64,000 nt of DNA from IMG/VR virus record IMGVR_UViG_3300033997_000141, positions 21,535 to 85,534 of that record; one strand, written 5' to 3'. The translations under genes were made by a program, and so were the position numbers. This stretch comes from a virus. Under the pieces are notes generated by a model, which was not told the origin of the DNA, searched no databases, and saw only the letters and a program-made list of their open reading frames with translations. Position 1 is the stretch's first letter. Each line of letters starts with the position of its first letter. Shown piece by piece: positions 1 to 63,499 of this stretch.

Positions 1-2375
1 CGGGGCTGGCGCGCCAGCGCGCCGCGGCCAAGCTGAACATCAAGGCCCAGCAGGCGTCGGTGGACCAGCTGCAGGGACAGATCCTCACTCGCCGCAACCA
101 GATCAACCAGGCCGAGCAGCTGGGCCTGAGCCCTGACGCTATCAAGGTGCTGAAGACGGACCTGGCCAACCTCGAAGGCCAAGTCGGCGAGTACCAGACC
201 CGCGTGGCTGATGCCAAGGAGCAGCTGTCGGCGCTGGGCACCACCACCGTCGATTACACCAGCGCGGTGGACGAGCAGGGCAAGGCCCTCAGCGAGGTTA
301 TTTCGCTGACCAACCAGCTGACCCTGGCGCAGGCCAACCTGGCGGCCACCTCGCGCACTGGGATCAACAACCTGAAGGGCCAGTCCAACGTCGGGCGCCT
401 GCAGGCCGAGCTGGATCTGGCCCGGTCACGCTTCGACTCAGCCGGCCGCAGCGTGGTGCAGGTCCAGAACAATGCCCCCACGGTGGCCTCCCTGTTCGAC
501 AAGTTCGATCAGGACGCGCAGGCACAAGCCGAGGAGGCTGCCTACAAGAAGACCGCCACGGTCAGCCAGAAGCTGCTGGACCTCGACGTCAAGCGCAACG
601 AGGAGCTGGCCGAGCGGGCCCGCCTGGTCAAACAGGACGAGGAGGCCCGCGCGCGCGGCGGCGATGGCCCAGGCCTGCAGATCATCGAGGCGAGCAACAA
701 ACGCCTGCTGGGCATCGACAAGGAGCGCCTGGAGCTTCAGGCCAAGCAGGCCGACCAGCAGCAACAGCTGCACCTCGCCCAGGAGTCCGCCGCCGCTGCC
801 AGCCGCAGCGATTCGGAGAACCAGGCCGCCTTGAAGGAGCGCCTGGTTTCGCTCGACCGAGACCTGGCCAAGGAACAGTCGCCGGAGGCGGGCAAGGCGG
901 TGGACCTGGAGCGGGTTACCCAGCTGTACCGCGAGCAAGCGCAGGTCCGCCAGCAGCTCGGTGCCATCGAGAAGCGTGAGGGTCGCTCCAGCCGCAAGGA
1001 GACCTCCGACTCCACCCGCGAGCTGGAGCAGGCTCAGCGGGCCTACGACACCCTGGCCAAGAAGGTGGACCCGGTAACGTCTGCCCAGCGCGAGCTGGAG
1101 AAGGCCACCAGGGCCATGAACCTGCTGCGCCAGGAAGGCCGTATCACCATGGCCCAAGAGGGCAAGGCCCTCGGTGAGCTGAACCTGCAGTATTACGAGG
1201 CCGTGAAGGCAGCGGACAAGAACTACGCGGCCCTGATGCGCGTGCGCCAGGCCTATGCTAACCCTCCGTTCAGCGCGGGTGTGGAAGACCTGGCCGTGAT
1301 GAACGCGGCCCTGAACCGCGGCGCGGTGTCGCTGAAGGAATACTCGGACACCTACTACCAGATCCTGAAAAAGCAGAAGGAAGAAGCCACGTCCGGGCTG
1401 CCGAAGGCAAACTTGCAGGTGGGCCTGGCCTCCAGCTCTCCCTTCACTGACTGGGTGTCCACCGAGATCGAGCGGGCCCAGGGCCTCAAGCAGTTCGAGG
1501 AGCGGCAGAAGGAGCTGGAGATCGCAGAAGGGCTCCAGAACGCGGCCAATGACCGTGAGCTGCAGGCCCAGATCGAGCAGCTGAACGCCAAAAAACTGAA
1601 CGCCGAGACCCACGCCCAGGAGATGCTGGAGATCGAGGGGCGCTACAACGAAAACAAGCTGGCGATCATCCAGTCCGCCGGCCAGCGGCAGAACGCGGTC
1701 AGCGTGCAGATGGCCCAGTACGCCGAGCAGATGAACACGATGGCGCTGGCGGCGGCCATGGGCAGCGTCAGCAACATCCTCGGGATGTTCGCCAGCGTGG
1801 GCGAAGAAGCCACCAGGGCGCAGAAGGCTGCGTTCATCGCCCAGAAGGCGATCGCCGTGGCGCAGATCATCATGTTCACCGAGTTGGGCGCCGCGCAGGC
1901 CATCGGTATCGCGGGCCCGTTTGGTATCCCGCTGGCCACCTTCATTCGCGCCACGGGCTACGCGAACGCGGGCCTGGTGGCTGCACTGGCCATTGGCGAC
2001 ATCGCCACCGGTGGCCGGGTGTCCACCGCCAGCAAGGGCACAGGCGGCGGGGCCCAGATGTACGACACGGGCGGCTTCATCCCCTACAACCGCACCGGCA
2101 TCGTCGGGGAGTATGGCCCGGAGCTGGTGACAGGGCCTGCCCATGTGCGCGGGCGCGGCGCCACCAAGTCCACCATGGGCGGCGGGGGCGGGGGCGATAC
2201 CTACAACATCACGCTGGCGCCTCAGATCACCGTTGAAGGCGGGGGTGCCACAGCCACGGAGTCGGACGGCAAGCAGGTCGCCCAGACCATCAAGGTGGTG
2301 ACAATGAACACGCTGCAGGAAGCCATCCGGCCACAAGGCCTGCTGGACACATGGATTCGGTCGAGGAAGGGATAA
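1..2375 (+). CDS. Tail tape measure protein (5' partial)
   Basis: The frame is open from base 3 to the stop, so the start lies left of the window; at least 791 residues are visible. Tape measure proteins set tail length and are ejected with the DNA. Most of the visible part is Q/E/A/K-rich predicted coiled coil. A hydrophobic alanine/isoleucine stretch follows (about residues 560-670 counted from base 60), then a glycine-rich segment and a conserved-looking C-terminal tail that often ends such proteins. The next genes have the lambda order M, L, K, I, J, which fixes this as the H homologue by position. The stop shares one base with the next start (TAATG). Sequence identity to lambda H cannot be judged by eye; the call rests on composition, length and order. 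Confidence 0.88.
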   Translation, partial: GLARQRAAAKLNIKAQQASVDQLQGQILTRRNQINQAEQLGLSPDAIKVLKTDLANLEGQVGEYQTRVADAKEQLSALGTTTVDYTSAVDEQGKALSEVISLTNQLTLAQANLAATSRTGINNLKGQSNVGRLQAELDLARSRFDSAGRSVVQVQNNAPTVASLFDKFDQDAQAQAEEAAYKKTATVSQKLLDLDVKRNEELAERARLVKQDEEARARGGDGPGLQIIEASNKRLLGIDKERLELQAKQADQQQQLHLAQESAAAASRSDSENQAALKERLVSLDRDLAKEQSPEAGKAVDLERVTQLYREQAQVRQQLGAIEKREGRSSRKETSDSTRELEQAQRAYDTLAKKVDPVTSAQRELEKATRAMNLLRQEGRITMAQEGKALGELNLQYYEAVKAADKNYAALMRVRQAYANPPFSAGVEDLAVMNAALNRGAVSLKEYSDTYYQILKKQKEEATSGLPKANLQVGLASSSPFTDWVSTEIERAQGLKQFEERQKELEIAEGLQNAANDRELQAQIEQLNAKKLNAETHAQEMLEIEGRYNENKLAIIQSAGQRQNAVSVQMAQYAEQMNTMALAAAMGSVSNILGMFASVGEEATRAQKAAFIAQKAIAVAQIIMFTELGAAQAIGIAGPFGIPLATFIRATGYANAGLVAALAIGDIATGGRVSTASKGTGGGAQMYDTGGFIPYNRTGIVGEYGPELVTGPAHVRGRGATKSTMGGGGGGDTYNITLAPQITVEGGGATATESDGKQVAQTIKVVTMNTLQEAIRPQGLLDTWIRSRKG

Positions 2376-14038: not shown

Positions 14039-14399
14039 GCTGCTGGATAAGCTGCAGGAGTACGCCTACTCAGGCACGCTCGGCGCTTTCGCAGCTCTGG
14101 TGGGCTACCTGTACCAGGTGGCCCGATCGCCGGGCAACAAGGTCAGCGTGTTCATGATTTTCACAACCATCGTGATCGGGTTCTACTTGGGGGTGGTGTT
14201 CGGTTCGTTCATTCCCAAGAGCTGGGACAACCGAGATGCCGTGCTGCTGCTCGTAGGAGCCACGGGCTTGAAGGGATTCGAGATCGTCGTTGGCTGGGCC
14301 AAGTCGGCGATCCCGAACTTGCTGAAGGCCATCCTCCAGGGCGCCGCGGGGGCGGCAGGAGGCGGCGGAGAAGAGGGGAAGAACAACGAGGGCAGCTAA
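14022..14399 (+). CDS. Holin-like membrane protein
   Basis: 125 residues from GTG 14022. There are three hydrophobic segments (about residues 19-34, 42-64 and 71-92) and a Gly/Ala/Glu-rich hydrophilic tail (AAGAAGGGGEEGKNN) with charged C-terminus. Topology and position after endolysin and spanins fit a holin that releases the endolysin. It is the last gene of the rightward unit; its stop lies inside a terminator hairpin. Confidence 0.65.
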   Translation: MNLPVELLDKLQEYAYSGTLGAFAALVGYLYQVARSPGNKVSVFMIFTTIVIGFYLGVVFGSFIPKSWDNRDAVLLLVGATGLKGFEIVVGWAKSAIPNLLKAILQGAAGAAGGGGEEGKNNEGS

Positions 14400-14410
14400 C
14401 GCTGCCCTCG
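14387..14410. terminator. Hairpin between convergent transcription units
   Basis: Perfect 10-base arms CGAGGGCAGC and GCTGCCCTCG with a TAAC loop, overlapping the last rightward stop codon and just before the end of the leftward unit at 14416. The flanking T runs are short (GTTT on the right, TTGTTCTT on the reverse strand). It probably works in both directions. Confidence 0.75.
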
Positions 14411-14415
14411 GCGTT

Positions 14416-14670
14416 TCAGGCGTGTGTCCACTCGAAGCGGCCATACAGCAGGCTGCCGTCCGGCTCCTTATACATCATCTCGTCTTCCCGCGACTCGATG
14501 TGCTTGATGCGCTTGACGTGCACCTGCTCAGGGATGGTCAGGTGCAGGTGCTCCAGCTTGCCTTCCGGGCTGACTCGGCGGTACTGGCCAACCAGCTTGA
14601 TCACCAGCGGGCTGCCGACAGGCGCCAGGTGGCAGGCGGGGTTGAAGTGGTCGTACTCGTTCAAGGTCAC
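14416..14670 (-). CDS. Uncharacterised protein at the end of the leftward unit
   Basis: 84 residues, not recognised. It is mostly polar, with MTLNEYDHFNPACHLAPVG at the start and a central region of alternating hydrophobic and charged residues (LEHLHLTIPEQVHVKRIKHI) suggesting a small beta sheet. The start overlaps the SbcC-like stop (ATGA), so it is probably translated with it. Confidence 0.65.
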   Translation of the reverse strand: MTLNEYDHFNPACHLAPVGSPLVIKLVGQYRRVSPEGKLEHLHLTIPEQVHVKRIKHIESREDEMMYKEPDGSLLYGRFEWTHA

Positions 14671-16913
14671 ACTCCTACGTTGATGATGTGCTCCGCCAGC
14701 GCCTGATCATTCTCGCGGTGAGTGATCAGCAGCACCTGCTTCGCCGACGACGCCAGCATAGCAGCCATCCCGCTGGCGTTGCGCTCGTTGCACGACTCGG
14801 TGGGTTCGTCGAAGGAGAGCAGACTGTCGCTGCCGTACAGCGCGCGGGACAGCCCGATCCTCAGCGAGGTACCGATGAAGGCTCGCTGCGCACCAGAGGC
14901 GCTGCTGGTGGGCGCCAGCACACCGTCCTCCTCGAACTGGAAGTCGCCCTCCACGTTCTCCAGGCGGGTGATGGTGCCGGCCGAGGCATCGCTCACCAGG
15001 CGGCTGGAGATGGCCAGGATGCTGTCCCAGACCTGCTTCATGTAGCCCTGGCGGCCATCGCGCAGGAAGCGGACCAGGCGCTCGCACTTCTTGGCCTCGG
15101 CTTCCGCCTCGAGCGCCGCCTTGTCCTGCTCCACCAAGGCGTCAACCGCCGACTTGGCGATATCCACCAAGTTGGACTGGTGGTGCAGCTCGGTGCGGGC
15201 GGCGGATTCGCAGGTGCTCAGCTCCGAGTGGCGATCGCGCCACTGCTGGTGCGCAGCCAGGTAACCCTGGTAGGCCTGCTCGGCGGCTTCGATTTCTTCG
15301 TCGGTGGGTGGCTCCGGCAGCTCTGCGTACTGCTCGTCCAGCTCCTTGACCTTGGCCTTTGCCTCGTCCAGTTGCTTGGTGGCGCGGGAGAGAGCTGCCA
15401 TGTCGGCGTCGATGCGCTGGTTGTGCGCCTGCACCGACTTCAGTTCCTCCTGGATGGCGGCGTACTCCTCGCGCGCTTGCTGCTGGGTGCCCTCGGCGTC
15501 GTTGATCTGCGAGTCGTCCACCTTGGTGAGGTTGTCCAGATTGGCCTGGGCCACACCGAGCTTGCGCTCGGCCTCGCCAACGGCATCCAGGGAGGCCTGG
15601 GCCTTCGCATCCTGATCTTCCAGGGACTTCAGCTCTGCACGGGCGAATACCTCGGCCCGTGAGGCGTTGCTGGCCACCTTGCGCACTTCAGTCAGCTGGC
15701 CGGTGATATCCTCCAGCTCCTTGCGCAGCTGTTCTGGGTCGTGGTCTTCCTTTGCATGCCCACAGGTGGGGCACTTGGCCCCCGCGGCCAGCTGCTTGGT
15801 GTTGCGCTCACGCAGTTCCAGCTCGTTAAGCGTCTGGAGGGCCACGTTGCTGGCTTTCACCGCGGCTTCCAGCTTGTCTTCGGCCTCCTGCAGCAGACCT
15901 ACAGCGCTCGGCTGCAATACCGCGTCCTCGGCCTGTTTCAGCTCAGCCTTGCGGGCGTCCACGGTGCGCAGGGCCAGCGCGTAATCCTGCTGATCGCGGC
16001 GCAGGGCTTCGAGCAGGGTCTTCGCGGCCACACCCTTGTCGTAGGCGATCTTCTGCTTGGCCTGCAGCTCCTCCGGGTCCTTCTTGGCCTGGCCCTCCAC
16101 GCGCGCCTGAGCCTCCGCTACGGCTGCTTCGGCTGTCGGCACCGCGGCCTCTGCACCTTCCAGCACAGCCAGAAGGACTGCGGCCGCCTGGGCGTCCTTG
16201 CGCATCTCCGGCGCCCGGTTGGCTACGACCTCACCGGCGAACTCGCCGAAGGCCTCCAGCTCCTCCTGCGCGGCCGTGTGGGCGGCGTTGGCAGCGTTCC
16301 AGGCGCCCGTGGCGGCCTCGTGGTTCTCACGGGCGGTGGCCAGCTGTTCCGGCAGCGGGCGATTCTCGGCGCGGGCGTTCAGGCGGCTGGCGCGCAGCTG
16401 CGCAGCCTGCTGCACACGCTCGATCACATCGACCCCTGCGTGCTCCTCGACCTTGCGGTTGAGCGCGGTGGCGCCGAAGGTCAGGATGCCGGCCGATTCG
16501 CCCTGGCGCGACTGGATGAACAGGTTGTAGTCCTTCGAGGGCAGGCCCAGCAGCTCCTCGATGGCGGTCTTCACCGGCGTGGTGCCGTTGGCCACCAAGT
16601 CGTCGGCCGGCTCGCCCGCTGCCAGTATGCGCTTCAGCTTGGCCGTGGACTTGTCGCGGGCCACCTGGTAGGTGTTGCCGTCCAGGCCTTTGAAGCACAG
16701 GTCCAGGCCGAAGTTCTTCTGTCCCCAAGTGGGGATGTGCTCGGCCTTGCCCGGGACAACGCTCACACCGAACAGCGCGGCTTCGATGGCTTGCAGCAGC
16801 GTGGATTTACCGGCGAAGTTCTCGCCCGCGATCACGTTCAGGCCTGGGCCGAACGCGCACTCGAAGTCACCGAGTTTCTTGAAGTTTTTGGTCTTGAGGG
16901 AGATCAGTTGCAT
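14667..16913 (-). CDS. SbcC/Rad50-like recombination nuclease ATPase subunit (T4 gp46-like)
   Basis: 748 residues. Walker A is VIAGENFAGKST (about residues 28-39). Two long coiled coils flank a zinc-hook motif CPTCGH (about 381-386). Near the C-terminus are the ABC signature region (SASGAQRAF), Walker B LLSFDEPTES (about 698-707) and the H-loop LLITHRE. SMC-like ATPases of this kind work with an SbcD/Mre11 nuclease to process DNA ends and start recombination-dependent replication. The partner lies 0.4 kb away, split off by two small genes. It is shorter than E. coli SbcC (1048 aa) and nearer to T4 gp46. Confidence 0.93.
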   Translation of the reverse strand: MQLISLKTKNFKKLGDFECAFGPGLNVIAGENFAGKSTLLQAIEAALFGVSVVPGKAEHIPTWGQKNFGLDLCFKGLDGNTYQVARDKSTAKLKRILAAGEPADDLVANGTTPVKTAIEELLGLPSKDYNLFIQSRQGESAGILTFGATALNRKVEEHAGVDVIERVQQAAQLRASRLNARAENRPLPEQLATARENHEAATGAWNAANAAHTAAQEELEAFGEFAGEVVANRAPEMRKDAQAAAVLLAVLEGAEAAVPTAEAAVAEAQARVEGQAKKDPEELQAKQKIAYDKGVAAKTLLEALRRDQQDYALALRTVDARKAELKQAEDAVLQPSAVGLLQEAEDKLEAAVKASNVALQTLNELELRERNTKQLAAGAKCPTCGHAKEDHDPEQLRKELEDITGQLTEVRKVASNASRAEVFARAELKSLEDQDAKAQASLDAVGEAERKLGVAQANLDNLTKVDDSQINDAEGTQQQAREEYAAIQEELKSVQAHNQRIDADMAALSRATKQLDEAKAKVKELDEQYAELPEPPTDEEIEAAEQAYQGYLAAHQQWRDRHSELSTCESAARTELHHQSNLVDIAKSAVDALVEQDKAALEAEAEAKKCERLVRFLRDGRQGYMKQVWDSILAISSRLVSDASAGTITRLENVEGDFQFEEDGVLAPTSSASGAQRAFIGTSLRIGLSRALYGSDSLLSFDEPTESCNERNASGMAAMLASSAKQVLLITHRENDQALAEHIINVGV

Positions 16914-21043: not shown

Positions 21044-21822
21044 ACGGCGTCCTCCGGCTTGATCAGGCCCAGCTGCAGGCGGATGGCCTGGTCAAGCTCG
21101 AAACTGATGGTCATCTCGCACTTTTCGCTGATGATCCAGCGCAGGTAGTCGTCCGGGATGTGCCGGATCTTCTTGCCCTTGTGCTTGGTGCCCCAGGACA
21201 GCTTCATGTCAGGGGTGCCGTCGTCACCCTGCATCCACTTGTGCAGCTGGTCCAGGCTGGTGCAGTCTGCCAAGCCCTTCTCGTTCACCAGGCGCATCAT
21301 CGGCGCGATCATGTCCAGGGTGCCGATCACGTCCGCCAGCGCGTCGTGCGCCTTGGCCAGCGGCTTGCCCAGCAGGCGTTCGTAGGAGTAGCCCAGATTG
21401 GCTGCCTCCCACAGGCCGGCCTTCTTGATCTTCGAGGCGCCCTTATACAGGTCCACCGAGCGATTCGGCTTCCAGCCCGCGCGGATGGCGATCTGATTGT
21501 CGAAACAGGCGCCGTTGAAACTGACCACAGCCTGGTAGTCGTGCTCGTTGATGGTCTTCATCTCGCTGCGCAGGAACGGCAGCCAGTCCGGCTTGCCCAT
21601 CACGTCGAGGTCGGTGTAGCCGTGGATCGCCGAGGCCTCGGCTTCGATCGGCACGCCGGGGTTCAGCAGGTTCACGTCCTGGTCCAGGATCTCGTAGCTG
21701 CCGTCCTGGTGCAGGGTGGCCATCAGCAGCGCCGACTGGATCACGCCCAGCTCCTGCACCTTCAAGCCGGTGGTTTCGTAGTCATGGCCGAAGACCACGA
21801 TCGATTGTTGGTTGAAGCTCAT
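21040..21822 (-). CDS. DEDDh 3'-5' exonuclease
   Basis: 260 residues. Exo I is FGHDYETTG (Asp14, Glu16), Exo II is VVSFNGACFDNQ and Exo III is KAHDALADVIGT with the catalytic His and Asp. This is the RNase T/exonuclease I/DnaQ superfamily, and the C-terminal 90 residues resemble exonuclease I accessory parts only loosely. It may degrade single-stranded DNA in recombination or act as a proofreader, although the polymerase has its own 3'-5' domain. The start overlaps the next upstream stop by four bases. Confidence 0.85.
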   Translation of the reverse strand: MSFNQQSIVVFGHDYETTGLKVQELGVIQSALLMATLHQDGSYEILDQDVNLLNPGVPIEAEASAIHGYTDLDVMGKPDWLPFLRSEMKTINEHDYQAVVSFNGACFDNQIAIRAGWKPNRSVDLYKGASKIKKAGLWEAANLGYSYERLLGKPLAKAHDALADVIGTLDMIAPMMRLVNEKGLADCTSLDQLHKWMQGDDGTPDMKLSWGTKHKGKKIRHIPDDYLRWIISEKCEMTISFELDQAIRLQLGLIKPEDAV

Positions 21823-38036: not shown

Positions 38037-38422
38037 GCGGTCTCCTTGGGGGTGTATCCCCACGCTCTGGTGCTCAGCCAGCGGTTGATGTCGAATTTCA
38101 TGGTCGGGCAAACCTTGGGGTCATCCAGCGCCGCAGCCAACCATTGGCCCAGTTTCTCGTCTTCGGCGGAAGGTAGGTAGAGCTTGACGAGCGCAGGCTG
38201 CTCGACCACTGGGGCCAGCAGCTCCACGCCGACGATGCCGGGGTGGCTGAACCACCACTCGGCGTGTTTGCGGGCCTGCTCCTCATCGAAGAAGGTGGCC
38301 TGGAGCGGCGAGCCCGCCACCTCGCTGGCCTTCACCGTCCAGAGCTTGGACCAGTCCTTTTCGGCCTCGACCACCGGCTTCCGGCGGCCGCGAGGGATCT
38401 TGTCGATGTTGCGCTTCCTCAT
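38033..38422 (-). CDS. Uncharacterised basic protein after the methyltransferase
   Basis: 129 residues from ATG 38422, overlapping the methyltransferase stop (ATGA). The N-terminus is basic (MRKRNIDKIPRGRRKPVVEA) and could bind nucleic acid; the middle has FFDEEQARKHAEWWFSHPG. Coupled translation suggests a link with DNA modification, but that is inference only. Confidence 0.62.
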   Translation of the reverse strand: MRKRNIDKIPRGRRKPVVEAEKDWSKLWTVKASEVAGSPLQATFFDEEQARKHAEWWFSHPGIVGVELLAPVVEQPALVKLYLPSAEDEKLGQWLAAALDDPKVCPTMKFDINRWLSTRAWGYTPKETA

Positions 38423-41400
38423 GCTCGTTTCAGCTCCTGGCGCTCCAGCGCCCATTTTGGAATGTTGGCTTCAACCAGTGCCCGCGCCAGCTGCGGAGGC
38501 ACCGAGTTACCGACCATGCGCACCTGGGCATGGTCAGGGAGTTTCTTGCCCATCACCACCTGGTGCTCGTAGCCCTCGGGGAAGCCCTGGCAGCGGTACA
38601 GCTCGTGTGGCTTCAGCATCCGCATGCCAATGTCCACGATCTGGTAGTCCTGGCCGTGGATGGTGACCAGGCCGAAGCGGGTCTTGCTGGTGATGGTGTG
38701 CAGCGGATCGTTCAGGTCCTGGCCGATCGCTCCGGTGGTGTAATACTTCAGCAGGAAGGCGCGGACCTCGCCGTAATGGTTGCCCTGGGCCTGGATGGTG
38801 CCCAGAGGCTCGTTCAGGCTCTGCCCATGCTGACAGCTGCCCTTCAGCTTGATCAGCGAGCTGGCGACCAGTGCGGCCTTGCCGCTGCCGCCCGCCGTGA
38901 TGGCGCCGATCGGCTCGGCGGCCGAGGAGCCGACGCTCTTGCCGAAATCCCGCTGGATGTGAGCCGCCACGATGGCGTCTTCCAGGTCGTGAGCCGGGTC
39001 CACCGGCTGCAGCTGCGCTTCCATCACCGAGTTGTGGTCGGTGGCGGTGATCGTCGGCAGTGGCTTGTCCAGGCTCTGGCCGACCACCCCGGTGTAATGC
39101 TTCAGCAGCGCCGCAACTCGCAGGTGCCTGGCCTTGCCAGTGATGGTGGACAGCGGTTCACCCATGCCGGTGGACGGGTCGCGGGTGCTGGCGTGGTCCA
39201 CGGTGGTGATGAACTCGGCGGTGACAGGCGCCAGCTCCACCTGCATGGCGCCCAGGGCGTGTGGAGCACCGGCTGGGCGGGCAGCTCCTGCGCCCGCCGT
39301 GATGGTTGGCAGCGGGTCATGGCAGCTGAAGCCGGCGGAGTCGCCGCGGAACTTCATGCCGGCCGCTGCGGTGATGGGCGCCAGCGAGGTCTCCACCACT
39401 GCGTGCTTGCTGCTGCCCACGATGGTCGGCAGAGGTTCCTGCAGGCTGTGGGTGCGAGGGTCTTGCCCGGGGCGCTCCCCATAGCCCACCGGCACCATAT
39501 GCGCCGCCACCACACCGGTACCCAGCTTGCCGGTGATGGTCTGCAGCGGCTCATCCAGGCTCTGGCCACGGAACTGGTCGTAGCCGTGGTTCACCTTCAC
39601 CAGGAAGGCATCGCTGCCGGCGTTGATCACGAACTTCTCGATGCCCTTGGCGATGCGCTTGAGGGTGTTCTCGGCCAGCGGCCGGCGCCCCTCCTCGAAG
39701 ATCGACGGGCACGGGATGGACCAGTCGAGGTTATCGCCGGCCGTCTCCTGCGGCTGCAGGCCGTTGGCCAGGGCGATATCGCGAGGTGCATGGGTTCGGG
39801 CTGGCCAGATGATCGGCAGGCCGTCCTTGCGGCCGATGCCGAAGAAGCGCTTGCGAATAGTGGCGGCGCCGTACTCGCTGGCGACCAGGGTGTCGAACTC
39901 GATCTGGTAGCCCATGGCCCGCAGCTGCTTGAGGAACTGCTTGAAGGTCTTCCCGGCGCGCTTTTTGTCTGGCACCAGGGCCTGGTTGCGGTAGGGGACC
40001 AACTCGCCGGGCTCGGCTATCCGGTTGATCATCTTCTTGCCCTTGGGGTCCTTCGGGTCCGGGATCAGGTCCAGGGTGACGACGCGCCCGGTGTCCTTGC
40101 AGCGCTTTGCGATCAGCGGGCCCCAGGTCACGAACTCGGGCACGTTCTCCATGAAGAACACCGCCATGTCGCCCTGGCCCGCCCACTTCTTGATGATCCA
40201 GGCCAGGCCGCGAATCTCTTTCTTCACCGGAGCGCCACCCTTGGCCACGCTGAAGTGTGTGCAGTTATGGGTTACGATACCCTCTACGACGTAACTCTCA
40301 TCCTCGTCAACCGAGATGTTGTAGACGGTCTCCATGCCCTCGGCTGGAGTTATTTCCTTGATCTTCCCCCACTCCATGCCCTCATCGCGCCAGGTCTGTT
40401 CACGGCCCGGCTGCACCTGGTCGAGCCAACGAATACACCAGGACGGTTGGCAGTCGACCTGGCGGCCTTGGATGGTGTCATTTTTGTGGTGCTCATACAC
40501 CGAGACGCTCTTACCCAGAGAGGTGGCCAGCATTTTCAGTCCGTAGATCAGCTGCTTGCTGACACTGGTTGCCTCGTGCTTTCCGTGCTTGAAATAGCCG
40601 TCGGCTTCCAGATACCCAGCCAGAAACGCTTGTCGGGTTGCCTCGTTGGCCTGGTACAGCCAGCCAGGAACCTTCTTGTTCTCAGCCAAGTGACCGAAGT
40701 TGTCGCGTAACCACTCGACCAGTCCTTTGTGGTTGGTGCTTAACTGAGTAGCGGTCTTGGTATTGCGGCGGTGCCAAGCCAGCTCGTTGTACTGAGCTTT
40801 GAGGCCCGCAGGCTTCCATTGTTGAAGCCATTGCTCCAGGCCATCAGCCTTGCACTGATGGGTGGTGAACACCAGCTCTGCACGGGTTTTGGTCACTCGG
40901 CTCCAGCCGTTGCCCACGTAGTAGCCCGCCAGACGCATCAGTTCAATGCTGATGTCCATGCCGCGTCCGCCCACAGGGGGGATAAAAACATTGCTGTTCT
41001 CTACCCGCTCCGGGGTCGCCCAGTACTGGCCAGCGCGTAGGTTGCAGGCGCTCACCCACTCCGATTTCTTGGCGTACTTCTCGCCACGGACATAGAAGGG
41101 GTGTTCACTGCTGACGCGCAAACCATGATGCCCGCGGCCACGTACTGTCATCACTGGCTTCTGAGACACCATAGTGGCGGTCACCTGGCGCCAGCGGTTC
41201 TTGTGGGTCTGCACCCAGTCGCCGATCTTCAGTTTTTCAATCGGTGCGTAGCCATGCATGGTCAGCACCAAGGTGCCGGCAGGGAAACAGTCGGGGCTGA
41301 ACCAGCCGAACAACACCGGGATGCCGGCCGTGGCTTCAGGGATGTGGACGTCCCACACCGACTCGTTGTAGTGGATCGTGTCCGGGTGGTTCTCCTCGTG

Positions 41401-41571
41401 CATCATCAGCGCCTCGGCGTTGTGATTCACGGCAATGTCGGGGCTCTTGCCGATCGCCTGGGAGATCCCAGTGCTGGCGCCGCCGCCCCCGGCGAAGTTG
41501 TCGGCGACCAGGCCGCCCATCCAACGATATCCTGCCACCGGCAATGCCGGCAGTTGAGCTGCAGTTCCCAT
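38419..41571 (-). CDS. C5 cytosine DNA methyltransferase interrupted by an intein
   Basis: 1050 residues as translated; about 708 after splicing. Start chosen at ATG 41571 with AAGGA upstream. Extein motifs: I ADNFAGGGGASTG (near residue 23), IV FSPD/CTHFS split by the intein, VI FFMENVPEF, VIII EYGAATIRKRFF, IX LKPHELYRCQGFPEGY and X QVRMVGNSVPPQLARALV. It transfers methyl from S-adenosylmethionine to carbon 5 of cytosine, probably to protect the phage from host restriction. The target-recognition part is long (about residues 670-965) and has eight EPLxTIT-type repeats. No matching restriction enzyme gene is seen, so it is an orphan. Confidence 0.93.
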   Translation of the reverse strand: MGTAAQLPALPVAGYRWMGGLVADNFAGGGGASTGISQAIGKSPDIAVNHNAEALMMHEENHPDTIHYNESVWDVHIPEATAGIPVLFGWFSPDCFPAGTLVLTMHGYAPIEKLKIGDWVQTHKNRWRQVTATMVSQKPVMTVRGRGHHGLRVSSEHPFYVRGEKYAKKSEWVSACNLRAGQYWATPERVENSNVFIPPVGGRGMDISIELMRLAGYYVGNGWSRVTKTRAELVFTTHQCKADGLEQWLQQWKPAGLKAQYNELAWHRRNTKTATQLSTNHKGLVEWLRDNFGHLAENKKVPGWLYQANEATRQAFLAGYLEADGYFKHGKHEATSVSKQLIYGLKMLATSLGKSVSVYEHHKNDTIQGRQVDCQPSWCIRWLDQVQPGREQTWRDEGMEWGKIKEITPAEGMETVYNISVDEDESYVVEGIVTHNCTHFSVAKGGAPVKKEIRGLAWIIKKWAGQGDMAVFFMENVPEFVTWGPLIAKRCKDTGRVVTLDLIPDPKDPKGKKMINRIAEPGELVPYRNQALVPDKKRAGKTFKQFLKQLRAMGYQIEFDTLVASEYGAATIRKRFFGIGRKDGLPIIWPARTHAPRDIALANGLQPQETAGDNLDWSIPCPSIFEEGRRPLAENTLKRIAKGIEKFVINAGSDAFLVKVNHGYDQFRGQSLDEPLQTITGKLGTGVVAAHMVPVGYGERPGQDPRTHSLQEPLPTIVGSSKHAVVETSLAPITAAAGMKFRGDSAGFSCHDPLPTITAGAGAARPAGAPHALGAMQVELAPVTAEFITTVDHASTRDPSTGMGEPLSTITGKARHLRVAALLKHYTGVVGQSLDKPLPTITATDHNSVMEAQLQPVDPAHDLEDAIVAAHIQRDFGKSVGSSAAEPIGAITAGGSGKAALVASSLIKLKGSCQHGQSLNEPLGTIQAQGNHYGEVRAFLLKYYTTGAIGQDLNDPLHTITSKTRFGLVTIHGQDYQIVDIGMRMLKPHELYRCQGFPEGYEHQVVMGKKLPDHAQVRMVGNSVPPQLARALVEANIPKWALERQELKRA
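38689..39552 (-). repeat. Eight EPLxTIT protein repeats in the methyltransferase
   Basis: Repeats at residues 674, 712, 752, 805, 836, 886, 921 and 955 of the unspliced protein: EPLQTIT, EPLPTIV, DPLPTIT, EPLSTIT, KPLPTIT, EPIGAIT, EPLGTIQ, DPLHTIT. Several are preceded by GQSL. Spacing is 31-53 residues. Usual C5 enzymes have one such element near the target-recognition domain. Confidence 0.85.
40264..41289 (-). mobile_element. Intein with LAGLIDADG homing endonuclease domain
   Basis: 342 residues inserted in frame. First residue Cys95 (CFPAGTLVLTMHGYAPIEKL), block B LRVSSEHPF, end of intein YVVEGIVTHN, and +1 Cys437. All residues needed for splicing are present (Cys1, block-B His, His-Asn end, Cys+1). 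Two LAGLIDADG-type helices: LAGYYVGNG (intein 120-128) and LAGYLEADG (223-231). The first has Asn where the catalytic acid is usual. Splicing rejoins SPD with CTHFS. Confidence 0.93.
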
Positions 41572-41579
41572 GCTATTCC

Positions 41580-41828
41580 TTATCGGCCAATGGCCTTCCA
41601 TTTGATGTCTTCAACCCCGCCGGTCAGCTTCAGGTCCTCACGGATGGCCGACTCGATCAGGTTGGTGAGGTCTTTCATCCAGCAGGCGTTCTTCGTCTTC
41701 ACCGAGAACTCCTGCTCACCCAAGGGGGTTTGATAGGTGCCGGTTACCAGCCACTTCCTCGGCCGTTGCTGCTGATCCCACTGGTGGATCTTCAATCCCT
41801 TCTCGCGGCTGTAAGTGGCGATCAGCAT
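41580..41828 (-). CDS. Uncharacterised protein upstream of methyltransferase
   Basis: 82 residues: MLIATYSREKGLKIHQWDQQ, then a strand-turn-strand region (WLVTGTYQTPLGEQEFSVKT) and a helical end. It has the look of a small beta-rich protein. It is the first gene after a likely promoter and is followed by the methyltransferase after 8 bases. Confidence 0.62.
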   Translation of the reverse strand: MLIATYSREKGLKIHQWDQQQRPRKWLVTGTYQTPLGEQEFSVKTKNACWMKDLTNLIESAIREDLKLTGGVEDIKWKAIGR

Positions 41829-56031: not shown

Positions 56032-56795
56032 AATGCCCCCGCCGCGGCCAACGCCGACCTGATCTTGGCCAGCTGGTCCACCGCCGCTGCGCTTTGCTCG
56101 CGCTGCTCGGTCACCTCCAGCGCCACCTCATCGATCTGGGCGGCGATGTTCACCAGGGCCAGGCGGTTCGCCTCGGCCTGGCTGCGCAGGGCCTCGGCCA
56201 GCGCGGCCAGCAGGGTAAGGGTGTCCGGTTTCTCGGGCAGGCTCACGGGTGCTTCCTTCTGTGGGGCGTCGATGGTGCCGTGCTGGCGCATGTTGCGGTT
56301 CATTTCCTCAGCCTGTTCCAGCGCCTCGGCGGTGTCTTTCTGGGCGCAATCCAGGTGCATGATGCGGCCGTCGCCAACGTCCTGGGCGCCTTCTTTGTTG
56401 CACCGGCTGCACATCCACACCGGCGGGCGGAGGGTGCGAACGCTGCGGTCCTTGGTGTGGATCAGCTGCGGGCCTTGCGGGATCAGGTTTTCCTTACCCG
56501 TCGCGGCGGCAGTCTCTTGCGAAACCACCCCGTCCAGGTTCAACTCCTTCAGCTGCTCGCTGAGGGAGGCCTTGACCTCGACCTGGATGAAACGGCTGCG
56601 GCTGACTTCCTTGATCAGGCCGTCTGCCTTGAGCTTGCCCAGGCAGCCCTTGACCACGTTGATGTCCGGGTTGCCCGGCATCGCCCCGCAGATCATCGAC
56701 GTGGCCCACGGCTCGCTGGCCGGCACCGACTCGTAGACCTTCAGGGCCATGGCGTTCAGGCTGCGAACAAGCTTGGCGTGTACTTTAGGTGTCAT
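56028..56795 (-). CDS. Winged-helix-like protein with zinc site and coiled coil
   Basis: 255 residues from ATG 56795 (GGAGTTGCGC site). Residues 1-75 look like a winged helix (WATSMICGAMPGNPDINVVK, LKADGLIKEVSRSRFIQVEV). Next come CSRCNKEG ... MHLDCAQ (zinc site, about 128-150) and a C-terminal coiled coil (QIDEVALEVTEQREQSAAAV). A DNA-binding regulator is plausible. It is near the upstream end of the leftward unit. Confidence 0.6.
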   Translation of the reverse strand: MTPKVHAKLVRSLNAMALKVYESVPASEPWATSMICGAMPGNPDINVVKGCLGKLKADGLIKEVSRSRFIQVEVKASLSEQLKELNLDGVVSQETAAATGKENLIPQGPQLIHTKDRSVRTLRPPVWMCSRCNKEGAQDVGDGRIMHLDCAQKDTAEALEQAEEMNRNMRQHGTIDAPQKEAPVSLPEKPDTLTLLAALAEALRSQAEANRLALVNIAAQIDEVALEVTEQREQSAAAVDQLAKIRSALAAAGAL

Positions 56796-58909: not shown

Positions 58910-59592
58910 TCAATGTCGTCCCATTTGAGGATGTTCACGCTGCCCTCGGCCACGCCGATCACTGCGATATCATCGAGGCTCCAGTTCTGGCCACCGCTGC
59001 CCCACTCGACGGAGCACTGCTCGGCGCCGAGCTCAGAGGCGTGTTCGGCGTCCCGCGCCTCCACCGTGCCGATCCAGGTGGTGCCTTCGTTGTTGGCCTC
59101 GCGGCAGAAGACGGTGAAGGTGGGCAGGCGCTGCTCCACCCGGCTACCAGGGTCGAAGTCCACATGAGCGGTGCAATGCACGGCGCTGGCTGGCTCCACC
59201 AGCAACCCACTCACGTCCACCATCATCATGCACAGGTTGGCCACGTCGGCGGCGTACTCGCGGATGCCTTCGCTGTTGCGGTCCTTGACGGCCTTCTGGA
59301 GCTTGCCCATGTGGTGGTACAGCTCCAGCAGGCATTCCCACGGCTGCATGGCCAGCCAGCCCTCGCGGTCACCCTTGCCGGAGTTGGCGTGCAGCTCCTG
59401 GCGCATCAGGGCGAGGAAGGGGAGGAGGGTGTCGTCGTACTTGGCGGGTGGGGCGGCCAGCAGCTCAGGCTGCCCTACCAGTTCGGCTAAGGCCCTGGCC
59501 ATCGCGGCGCACCAGTTCGACGTCCCGTGCAGGAGTTCCTTGTGGTTGACTTGGCCATACGCCTGCATGACCGTCTTCATGCTGATGCTCAT
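58906..59592 (-). CDS. Uncharacterised protein with MazG-like helical pattern
   Basis: 228 residues from ATG 59592. The helical stretch GIREYAADVANLCMMMVDVS resembles the last helix of all-alpha NTP pyrophosphatases, but the paired ExxE half is weak (LLELYHHMGKLQKAVKDRNS). The C-terminal half is beta-rich (TFTVFCREANNEGTTWIGTV). An inactive or divergent relative is possible. Confidence 0.58.
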   Translation of the reverse strand: MSISMKTVMQAYGQVNHKELLHGTSNWCAAMARALAELVGQPELLAAPPAKYDDTLLPFLALMRQELHANSGKGDREGWLAMQPWECLLELYHHMGKLQKAVKDRNSEGIREYAADVANLCMMMVDVSGLLVEPASAVHCTAHVDFDPGSRVEQRLPTFTVFCREANNEGTTWIGTVEARDAEHASELGAEQCSVEWGSGGQNWSLDDIAVIGVAEGSVNILKWDDIE

Positions 59593-60411: not shown

Positions 60412-61905
60412 TCACTCCTCGGTCAGTCGGACCATGTTGAGGTCGCGGCGGGGGATGTACTTGGCCTTCTCGTCATCGCGGCCTTCGTGCTCCACCCACG
60501 CCACATTGTAATAATTTTCTACGCTGAACAGCGGATAACTCATGGCGCGGAGCTTCTGCGCCCAGTACGCCCGCTGCGGGTCGTGGTCCATCTCCAGCTC
60601 GCGCGCCAGGTTCTCCATCTCCTCCATCCACTCTGCCTGAGCCAGGTGGAACACCCCGGAGGTATCGACCAGCTCCACGGCCTCCCGCACCGTCGCCGCC
60701 GACATGAACGTCTCACCGCGACGCTTCTGGTCCTCCACCGCGAAGCGCACCAGCTTGCCGGTGGGCAGCCCCGTCAGCAGCGACATGCCGATCAGGCAAC
60801 GGGCATTGATCAGCACAGGCTCGCGCGTCCGGCACCGGCCCGACACACACAGCCGGCGAATGATCAGCCGCGCCATCACCTTGGTCATGTCCTCGCCCGG
60901 GTCGCCGCTCAGTTGCAGCTCGGACCAGGGCCGCTCATAGACCGCCCGCACCGCCGCCGCGAAGGCCATGTTCGTAGGGTGCGCTGCGTCCGCCCAGTAG
61001 CCCATGCCGTAGTCGCGCTCGATGCGCCGCCGGCTGTGGGGCTGGATCAGGGTGGAGTTGACGGACAGCGCCTGCATGGCGTCGATCATCACGCCCGGCT
61101 TGATGGCGTTGATGCGGTGGTAGAGGTCGGCGCCATAGCCGCTGTTGTGCATCAGGTGCATGGCGAACGGACCTCGGGTGCCCTCCAGCCACTCGCGCCG
61201 CGCCGAGTAGGTGCGGTCCTTGTACTGGATCACCTTGCGCAGCCGCTCCAGCCGCCCGGCATACGCACCTTCATCCTCACTCGACAGCTGGTAGAGCTGC
61301 GACTCGAGGAACATGTCGCCATGGTGATGCACCTGGTCGGGGCGATAGCCGACGGTGGCCAGCGCGTCGGAGAGGTTGGACTCGACGTCCTGGTCCTCGA
61401 ACTCCAGCAGCCCGAGCGCCCGCTCGCACGCCACCTCCAGCTCGTACAGGGAGCAGCCGCCCAGCAGCAGCGCGACGGTGCGCGGGCTGCATGGCTCGAA
61501 CGGGCTGCCGGAGCTGTGGCGCAGCGCCGACTTGGCCAGGCCGTTGAGGTAGGCCTTGAAGGGCTCATCGGGCAGGTCGTGGGCGCCGATCAGGCAGCGG
61601 CCGGCGTTCCTGGCGATCTCCTCCTCAAGGTAGGGCGACCCCCCGGTGGCCGGCTTGGGCACCAGGCCGTTGGCGACCATCTGCGCAGCCAGCAGGTGCT
61701 GGCCCAGCACGTTGAGATCGGCGGGGCTGGCGTGCTTGACCGCCGCAGGCACGGAGCGCTCCTTGCGGCTGCGACCCCCGACGGGCAGTGTCACAACGTG
61801 CGGCGCGCCGACCTTCTCGGAGCTGCGGTGCACGGATTTCTTGGGCTTGCGGGCAGCCTCTTGGGCTGCGACCTGCTCCGGGGACAGGGTCTGAAATAAG
61901 TTCAT
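60412..61905 (-). CDS. Uncharacterised 497-aa protein, first gene of the leftward unit
   Basis: 497 residues from ATG 61905 with GGAG five bases upstream. The N-terminal 60 residues are basic (EAARKPKKSVHRSSEKVGAP). The rest looks mostly helical with an acidic C-terminal third (EWMEEMENLARELEMDHDPQ). No motif is recognised. Being first behind the repeat-rich non-coding region suggests early and strong expression. It could be a host take-over or replication-start protein; this is inference from position. Confidence 0.66.
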   Translation of the reverse strand: MNLFQTLSPEQVAAQEAARKPKKSVHRSSEKVGAPHVVTLPVGGRSRKERSVPAAVKHASPADLNVLGQHLLAAQMVANGLVPKPATGGSPYLEEEIARNAGRCLIGAHDLPDEPFKAYLNGLAKSALRHSSGSPFEPCSPRTVALLLGGCSLYELEVACERALGLLEFEDQDVESNLSDALATVGYRPDQVHHHGDMFLESQLYQLSSEDEGAYAGRLERLRKVIQYKDRTYSARREWLEGTRGPFAMHLMHNSGYGADLYHRINAIKPGVMIDAMQALSVNSTLIQPHSRRRIERDYGMGYWADAAHPTNMAFAAAVRAVYERPWSELQLSGDPGEDMTKVMARLIIRRLCVSGRCRTREPVLINARCLIGMSLLTGLPTGKLVRFAVEDQKRRGETFMSAATVREAVELVDTSGVFHLAQAEWMEEMENLARELEMDHDPQRAYWAQKLRAMSYPLFSVENYYNVAWVEHEGRDDEKAKYIPRRDLNMVRLTEE

Positions 61906-62038
61906 GGCCACTCCAGGGTAAAATCGGAAAATCGTTATGAAATTAGCATAAAACGCGAAACCTCGATAGGTGAGGTAAGGCTCATTTTGCGATTATTTCT
62001 TCGGTCTTTTCCCAGTTGACCCCTACTTGGGAGTTATA

Positions 62039-62059
62039 CCCTTATCGTCTGTATAAGGG
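62039..62059. promoter_or_regulatory. Inverted repeat with GTATAAGGG motif
   Basis: CCCTTAT-CGTCTGT-ATAAGGG: seven-base arms, seven-base centre. GTATAAGGGC (62051-62060) recurs exactly at 62241-62250, and its complement CCCTTATAC is at 62466-62474. Repeated short sites suggest binding of one protein, or phage promoters. Confidence 0.5.
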
Positions 62060-62230
62060 CAGTGTGGAAAAAGCGAAAAGTTGGCCGTTTCGGTGTGGTT
62101 AAAAAGTAACCGAAAACCGGCTTCTGTAACTCTTGGCCGCGTAAGTTATGGTGACGACGCGGCGGCCTCCTTTGCGCCCAGGGAATCCGCTGGAGGCCCC
62201 GTGGATGCCGGGGTTGGGGCGGATGAGGGC

Positions 62231-62315
62231 GTCAGGGAGGGTATAAGGGCGGGTGAAGGCGTGGAATTGCTGGGAGGCGCCGGGAATACTGGAGTTGAGG
62301 GGTGTCAGGGAGGGT
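62231..62315. repeat. 12-base direct repeat GTCAGGGAGGGT
   Basis: Exact copies at 62231-62242 and 62304-62315, each followed by G-rich sequence with GGTATA (62240-62245; 62324-62329). Confidence 0.6.
62235..62253 (+). other. G-quadruplex-type tract
   Basis: GGG-A-GGG-TATAA-GGG-C-GGG: four G triplets with loops of 1, 5 and 1 bases, matching the standard rule for intramolecular quadruplexes. It contains the GTATAAGGG motif. Confidence 0.6.
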
Positions 62316-62465
62316 GAGGAGGCGGTATAGGGCGGGAGTGAGGGGGATAGTTAGAGTTTTCACGCTGCCAGCCTAACCGCTAGAATCATTTTTCAAAAAA
62401 CGTTTCAAGTCCTCCGGGACGTAAACTTTATTGTTTCCCTGGATCAGCCTGAGTGTTATGTGACT

Positions 62466-62521
62466 CCCTTATACAATAACAATAACAATAACAATCATAA
62501 GTAATACTTACTTACTTACTA
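62466..62521. repeat. AT-rich tandem repeats and palindrome
   Basis: CCCTTATAC (62466-62474), then 3.7 copies of CAATAA (62474-62495), then the palindrome TAAGTA-A-TACTTA (62498-62510), overlapping nearly four copies of ACTT (62506-62521). Such low-melting repeat runs are typical of unwinding elements at origins. Confidence 0.65.
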
Positions 62522-62543
62522 CAGGCCGTCTGTCTGAAAAGAC

Positions 62544-62584
62544 TTGACACGCACCTTTACTCGTGTTCACCGCCACCTTTACTC
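62544..62584. repeat. TTGACA and 11-base direct repeats CACCTTTACTC
   Basis: A perfect rightward TTGACA (62544-62549) lies next to exact direct repeats CACCTTTACTC at 62552-62562 and 62574-62584 (22-base period). No -10 box is seen at 16-18 bases, so a promoter is not claimed. Confidence 0.5.
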
Positions 62585-62626
62585 ACCGTCACACCGCCAG
62601 CATTCCTTTACGCTGCGCTGTGCCGG

Positions 62627-63472: not shown

Positions 63473-63499
63473 AAAAAAGCCCGACCAGGTGGCCGGGCT
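63473..63499 (-). terminator. Rho-independent terminator
   Basis: Reading leftward AGCCCGGCC-ACCT-GGTCGGGCT (nine pairs, one G-T) followed by TTTTTT. It ends the unit of the 63-aa membrane protein. It closely matches the terminator at 27971-28001 (AGCCCGG...CGGGCTTTTTTATT). Confidence 0.85.

Follow-up and report, generated by a model that had tools for sequence, protein, structure and literature searches.

The window analysed here, the whole 64-kb stretch of DNA under study, spans positions 21,535–85,534 of a virus record totalling 85,534 bases. The two termini of the record have 127 identical bases in common, so the contig closes as a circle of ~85,407 bp (85.4 kb). It is a siphophage contig whose gene content and order match those of the Pseudomonas phages Lana (88 kb), PMBT3 (87 kb) and UAntarctica (81 kb), with a long leftward run coding for a DNA polymerase I-like protein, primase, Snf2-type helicase, ligase, ThyX and an SbcC-like exonuclease. 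One stretch of this run is free of genes. Its edges are the ATG (61905) of a 497-aa gene and the stop (62627) of a small leftward ORF that carries the C-terminal motif of UAntarctica uan_040, to which it is homologous. When ORFs of at least 80 aa are counted on both strands, no uncovered run of the window is longer than 61912–62588 (677 nt), in line with the first-pass annotation, and the next measures 244 nt. The window has no second gap of this kind, although the phage does: a larger divergent gap lies outside the window. The gap had also been taken as the start of the longest leftward unit; a gene does start at its edge, but the gap does not stand ahead of the whole leftward set. It has leftward genes shared with the relatives on either flank and so sits inside the leftward run. 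The features at the locus are as follows.

60412–61905, minus strand: the 497-aa gene, downstream of the gap (499 aa if started at GTG 61911)
61906–62626, minus strand: conserved non-coding gap between the uan_040-like gene and the 497-aa gene, read leftward
61910–61916, minus strand: ribosome-binding-site-like CTGGAGT just upstream of ATG 61905, read from sequence
61943–61953, minus strand: TTTTATGCTAA, a -10-like box and candidate promoter for the 497-aa gene, whose start codon follows ~40 nt downstream
62034–62059, both orientations: GTATAAGGG-type boxes, TTATAC at 62034–62039 and GTATAAGGG at 62051–62059 (plus strand)
62150–62350, minus strand: C-rich, G-poor, least structured transcript segment (Rho-loading-like), from composition and folding
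62210–62253, plus strand: G-quadruplex motif opposite the C-rich segment, in the G-rich block
62241–62249, plus strand: GTATAAGGG box, from the box count
62381–62580, no strand assigned: AT-rich block, the lowest-GC 200 nt in the window (38.5% versus ~63% overall)
62466–62474, minus strand: GTATAAGGG box that aligns with the GGGGTATAGAGGGGGTATGGGGGAG repeats of the relatives
62473–62522, no strand assigned: tandem repeats (ACAATA)n and (ACTT)n, replaced at this site in relatives by different short units
62546–62583, minus strand: two copies of the GAGTAAAGGTG repeat, at the stem-loop site of the relatives; the stem-loop is not clear in this genome
62882–63358, minus strand: uan_042-like gene (158 aa), upstream of the gap, 34–49% identity, matched in seven of seven relatives searched
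63478–63499, minus strand: intrinsic terminator, AGCCCGGCCACCTGGTCGGGCT TTTTT, preceding the uan_042-like gene, upstream of the gap and within its leftward run

Base counts and a GC scan of the window bear out the earlier description of a G-rich block beside an AT-rich block, with 102 G versus 34 C on the plus strand at 62150–62350. The repeats of several kinds reported there are equally real and comprise GTATAAGGG, (ACTT)n, (ACAATA)n and GAGTAAAGGTG. Four copies of GTATAAGGG are present in 64 kb against 0.07 expected, three of them inside the gap, and TTATGCTAA has a single occurrence in the genome. We rejected GAGTAAAGGTG as a genome-wide element, its frequency being at chance level. The TTTTATGCTAA box recurs, identical or nearly so, at the equivalent place in Lana and in two other relatives (G003 and G007). 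Scanned for the sigma-70 consensus, the gap shows neither a good promoter nor a full -35/-10 pair on its leftward strand. A simple promoter with its leader would be expected to take up less space than the gap does.

Read leftward, the G-rich block becomes a C-rich transcript. When the leftward strand is followed genome-wide in 120-nt windows, the surplus of C relative to G peaks within the gap in all four genomes compared (this phage, UAntarctica, Lana and PMBT3). Folded as RNA, the C-block contains the least structured 100-nt window of the searched stretch in three genomes and ranks seventh in PMBT3; in the present phage it is the least structured of 2556 such windows. Rut sites are pyrimidine-rich and G-poor and precede termination by >60 nt (PMC5725501), and the gap segment likewise is C-rich, G-poor, unstructured and untranslated RNA. 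One relative, G001, has a gap without a C-rich block. No intrinsic terminator was found in the gaps tested. G-quadruplex motifs are present in 8 of 11 gaps, and that of UAntarctica is the only one in its genome.

We compared the gap across ten relatives, namely UAntarctica, Lana, PMBT3 and seven IMG/VR phages, which with the present phage gives 11 gaps. In all ten, the same upstream genes are followed by a gap of ~600–720 nt, and the homologue of the 497-aa gene comes directly after it. Two of these gaps span contig ends: that of G006 closes through a 127-nt overlap, and that of G007 is unclosed and incomplete. The equivalents in Lana (81,202–81,842), PMBT3 (about 78,811–79,525) and UAntarctica (14,134–14,803) are alike in position, length class, order of parts and downstream gene, whereas the present phage differs from them in lacking the GGGGTAT repeat and in its tandem-repeat unit. 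Most parts are retained among the relatives, including the stem-loop, short tandem repeats, GGGTATA/GTATAAG boxes, a CTAATACTGG box and the C-rich, G-poor, unstructured segment. In the direction of the gene, the order begins with a stem-loop whose sequence varies while its complementarity is kept (eight genomes), followed by a TGCAAGG...TGCCA or TGTCAAG...AACGGCT box and by short pyrimidine-rich tandem repeats whose unit varies among phages. Then come GGGGTATAGAGGGGGTATGGGGGAG-type repeats, AAACCTAATACTGG and the C-rich block, and finally CTTATAC boxes, a TTTTATGCTAA-like box and the start codon.

Counted over all 11 gaps, GTATAA/TTATAC reaches 27 copies, where dinucleotide shuffles yield 3.5 and at most 9; for GGGGTAT, counted on the gene strand, the corresponding figures are 16 copies, 0.6 and at most 4. 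A harsher local-shuffle test places shared 12-mers slightly above chance (6 genomes versus a maximum of 5). GTATAA boxes and similar C-rich leaders are present in the divergent gap too and are not specific to this one. A 25-mer of the relatives' G-rich GGGGTATAGAGGGGGTATGGGGGAG repeats matched, within the viral collection, only contigs already placed in the group. No relatives were found in bacterial genomes or, at the DNA level, among plasmids; a viral scan with a single sequence also returned none, an alignment being needed to reach them. The Lana and PMBT3 papers put forward no function for the gap, which is unannotated in the annotated relatives. Since its position and architecture are kept while the neighbouring protein has drifted to ~30% identity, the role of control region is supported, and we conclude that the gap is a real, conserved cis-acting control region. 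This upholds one half of the earlier term 'master control region'. The 'master' half lacks support, as the divergent hub is a separate gap.

Several observations concern the window at large. A DNA cytosine methylase gene (38419–41601) carries an intein with a LAGLIDADG homing endonuclease; its homologues are annotated as much shorter in PMBT3 and UAntarctica and are of similar length in Lana. ARAGORN reports a tRNA-Arg at 56223–56319 (plus strand), opposite a leftward gene region and possibly a false positive; the relatives' tRNAs, unlike this one, lie near the terminase. A segment of ~250 bp at 59215–59461 has 72% DNA identity to the unrelated phages TPWB-08 and Luteibacter phage Pluto, a match that suggests gene exchange.

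The gene that follows the gap most likely starts at ATG 61905, with its ribosome-binding-site-like sequence. Its 497-aa product shares 28–32% identity with the homologues in the relatives (tblastn and alignments) and belongs to a family confined to this phage group, with no family in Pfam, NCBIfam or PHROGs and no PDB sequence match at E below 0.6. AlphaFold2 predicts an all-helical protein with moderate confidence (mean pLDDT 61, pTM 0.65). This moderate-confidence fold has no match in the PDB, and against a viral structure library the sole significant match is the Lana homologue. In PMBT3, an in-frame ATG upstream of the homologue (L004 8387–8485) aligns with the relatives, and that gene is probably annotated ~100 nt too short.

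On the other side of the gap, a terminator equivalent to that at 63478–63499 stands ahead of the uan_042-like gene in five of six relatives checked (six of seven genomes with our own). Farther upstream, 2–3 kb around the circle, is the divergent hub, the second gap of ~860 nt (contig 896–1756, outside the window). Several further conserved blocks are found in the hub across four phages, and a C-rich leader also lies ahead of the first rightward gene. In the leftward leader of the hub, the 10-mer core of boxA, the rRNA antitermination site, is present twice; elsewhere in these genomes it is rare.

Contig 1171–1180 and 1537–1546, minus strand: pair of boxA-like sites of the rRNA type within the leftward operon's leader, recurring in relatives

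This leader carries CGCTCTTTAACAATT and, farther downstream, CACTCTTTAACAT; the E. coli rrnH leader reads CTGCTCTTTAACAATTT. Among seven IMG/VR records scanned whole, our own included, CTCTTTAACA has exactly two copies in six, on the same strand and about 300–370 nt apart, and one copy in G001; a reversed control pattern has zero occurrences in those seven records. Elsewhere, UAntarctica has two copies, PMBT3 one (its second being a CTCCTTAACA variant) and Lana three, one of them outside the hub. The location of the sites in the hub, on the leftward strand, was read directly in four genomes, with the one variant copy in PMBT3. The CTCTTTAACA pair is likely to be a NusB/NusE-type antitermination signal, and its presence in the hub would offer a reason for retaining a Rho-sensitive segment farther down. 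Any link between boxA and the gap is indirect, because a conserved intrinsic terminator stands between them and rRNA-type antitermination is chiefly a mechanism of Rho resistance.

On balance, we lean towards a reading in which the gap supplies both a promoter and a Rho-type attenuator leader, serving the 497-aa gene together with the ~47-kb leftward run that follows. Leftward transcripts would start in the divergent hub, where their leader would bear the two rRNA-type boxA sites, and would traverse three small genes and the intrinsic terminator, then a second short gene group, before they reach the gap. There the nascent RNA would pass the stem-loop (clear in eight relatives, not in the present genome) and then the repeated GTATAAG boxes, and host Rho could load on the ~100–150 nt of very C-rich, G-poor, unstructured RNA. 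From a fresh promoter (TTTTATGCTAA) near the start codon, transcription would run through the 497-aa gene into the ~47 kb of replication and other genes beyond. Unmodified polymerase would be halted at the gap and antiterminated or newly initiated polymerase would proceed, so that the gap would divide immediate-early from later leftward transcription. What the sequences show directly is where the gap lies, its conservation, the box counts, the base composition, the low RNA structure, the boxA copies and the terminator; transcript starts, Rho action at the gap, boxA function, a role of the boxes as operators and use of the promoter are all features that we infer. A more specific form of the model, in which the two rRNA-type boxA sites make polymerase Rho-resistant and the C-rich gap ~2.7 kb downstream acts as a Rho checkpoint that admits such polymerase, or polymerase started at the gap promoter, into the ~47-kb replication block, seems to us attractive but unlikely as it stands.

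The locus had earlier been proposed as a replication origin. The 497-aa or another phage protein would then bind the GTATAAG/GGGTATA sites, the AT-rich block would melt and the phage replisome would load, a course of events that we regard as possible but doubtful. Its appeal is that repeated short sites adjoin the window's lowest-GC block, the kind of AT-rich DNA that unwinding calls for, and that a long, conserved non-coding gap, with a G-quadruplex motif in most genomes, adjoins a conserved orphan gene. The sites themselves, although enriched in the gap, number only 1–3 copies per genome and are found in the hub as well, and the replication genes are ~30 kb off. The cumulative GC-skew minimum is ~0.9 kb from the gap in the present phage, and the detrended minimum about 2 kb from it in UAntarctica, yet the minimum is distant in Lana (26.6 kb) and PMBT3 (46.0 kb), and in three of the four genomes the cumulative maximum coincides with the hub. 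The skew analysis that had been offered as a check thus gives no consistent turning point at the gap across the four genomes. A DnaA-type origin was rejected, the one TTWTNCACA in this gap not being kept in relatives; DnaA boxes are single and unconserved, not clustered. The idea that the 497-aa gene might encode an initiator likewise lacks support, as neither an initiator family nor an initiator fold was found (the model being of moderate confidence). With no consistent skew extremum, few repeats and no initiator signature, the origin claim is not borne out.

It appears quite unlikely that the gap acts after transcription has started, as a structured non-coding RNA or a leader of riboswitch type that controls the 497-aa gene through its stem-loops and repeats. 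Stem-loops with differing but self-complementary arms in 8 of 11 gaps (GTTTCG/CGAAAC, GTTCCT/AGGAAC, GTTTTGC/GCAAAAC and GTTTaCC/GGgAAAC among them) speak for it, and the 5' part of our own gap folds somewhat better than shuffles (z = -1.85). On that same 5' part, however, RNAalifold gives zero consensus pairs; no Rfam match in the gap reaches the gathering score, and the most conserved downstream part is unusually unstructured. We consider it very improbable that the gap is a packaging or end site or holds an unannotated short gene. Repeats and a long gene-free stretch might fit either, but the terminase is kilobases away, past the hub, and the ORFs of ~30–115 aa that can be read in the gaps share neither frame nor sequence among genomes, a disagreement on which we rejected a small coding gene. 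A leader peptide from ATGCAAGG (MQGxCQ...) was also rejected: the frame is open in several relatives, but in G004 and G001 a stop follows after two to six codons, and the present genome offers no alignment.

The preferred reading, a promoter with a Rho-type attenuator leader, would give a function to an unannotated, strongly kept regulatory region in a phage group whose transcription programme appears to be unstudied. Together with the boxA pair of the hub, the gap provides a specific, testable model of how early and middle genes could be ordered with host RNA polymerase. If true, a boxA-licensed checkpoint would mean that these phages commandeer the rRNA antitermination machinery of the host.

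Known systems resemble the locus in part. The repeated short sites adjoining an AT-rich block recall iteron-type plasmid and phage origins, but the phage sites are few, short and in both orientations, and no initiator is recognisable. The boxA of the E. coli rRNA leader offers a closer likeness, with GCTCTTTAACAATT common to the rrnH leader and the phage hub leader; here it stands in a phage leader, in two copies, ahead of a protein-coding operon. Lambdoid early operons combine nut/boxA, rut and antitermination. Like them, the present phage has a divergent hub, boxA-like sites in an early leader and Rho-loading-like C-rich RNA downstream, whereas its boxA is of the rRNA type and its rut-like site lies ~2.7 kb from boxA.
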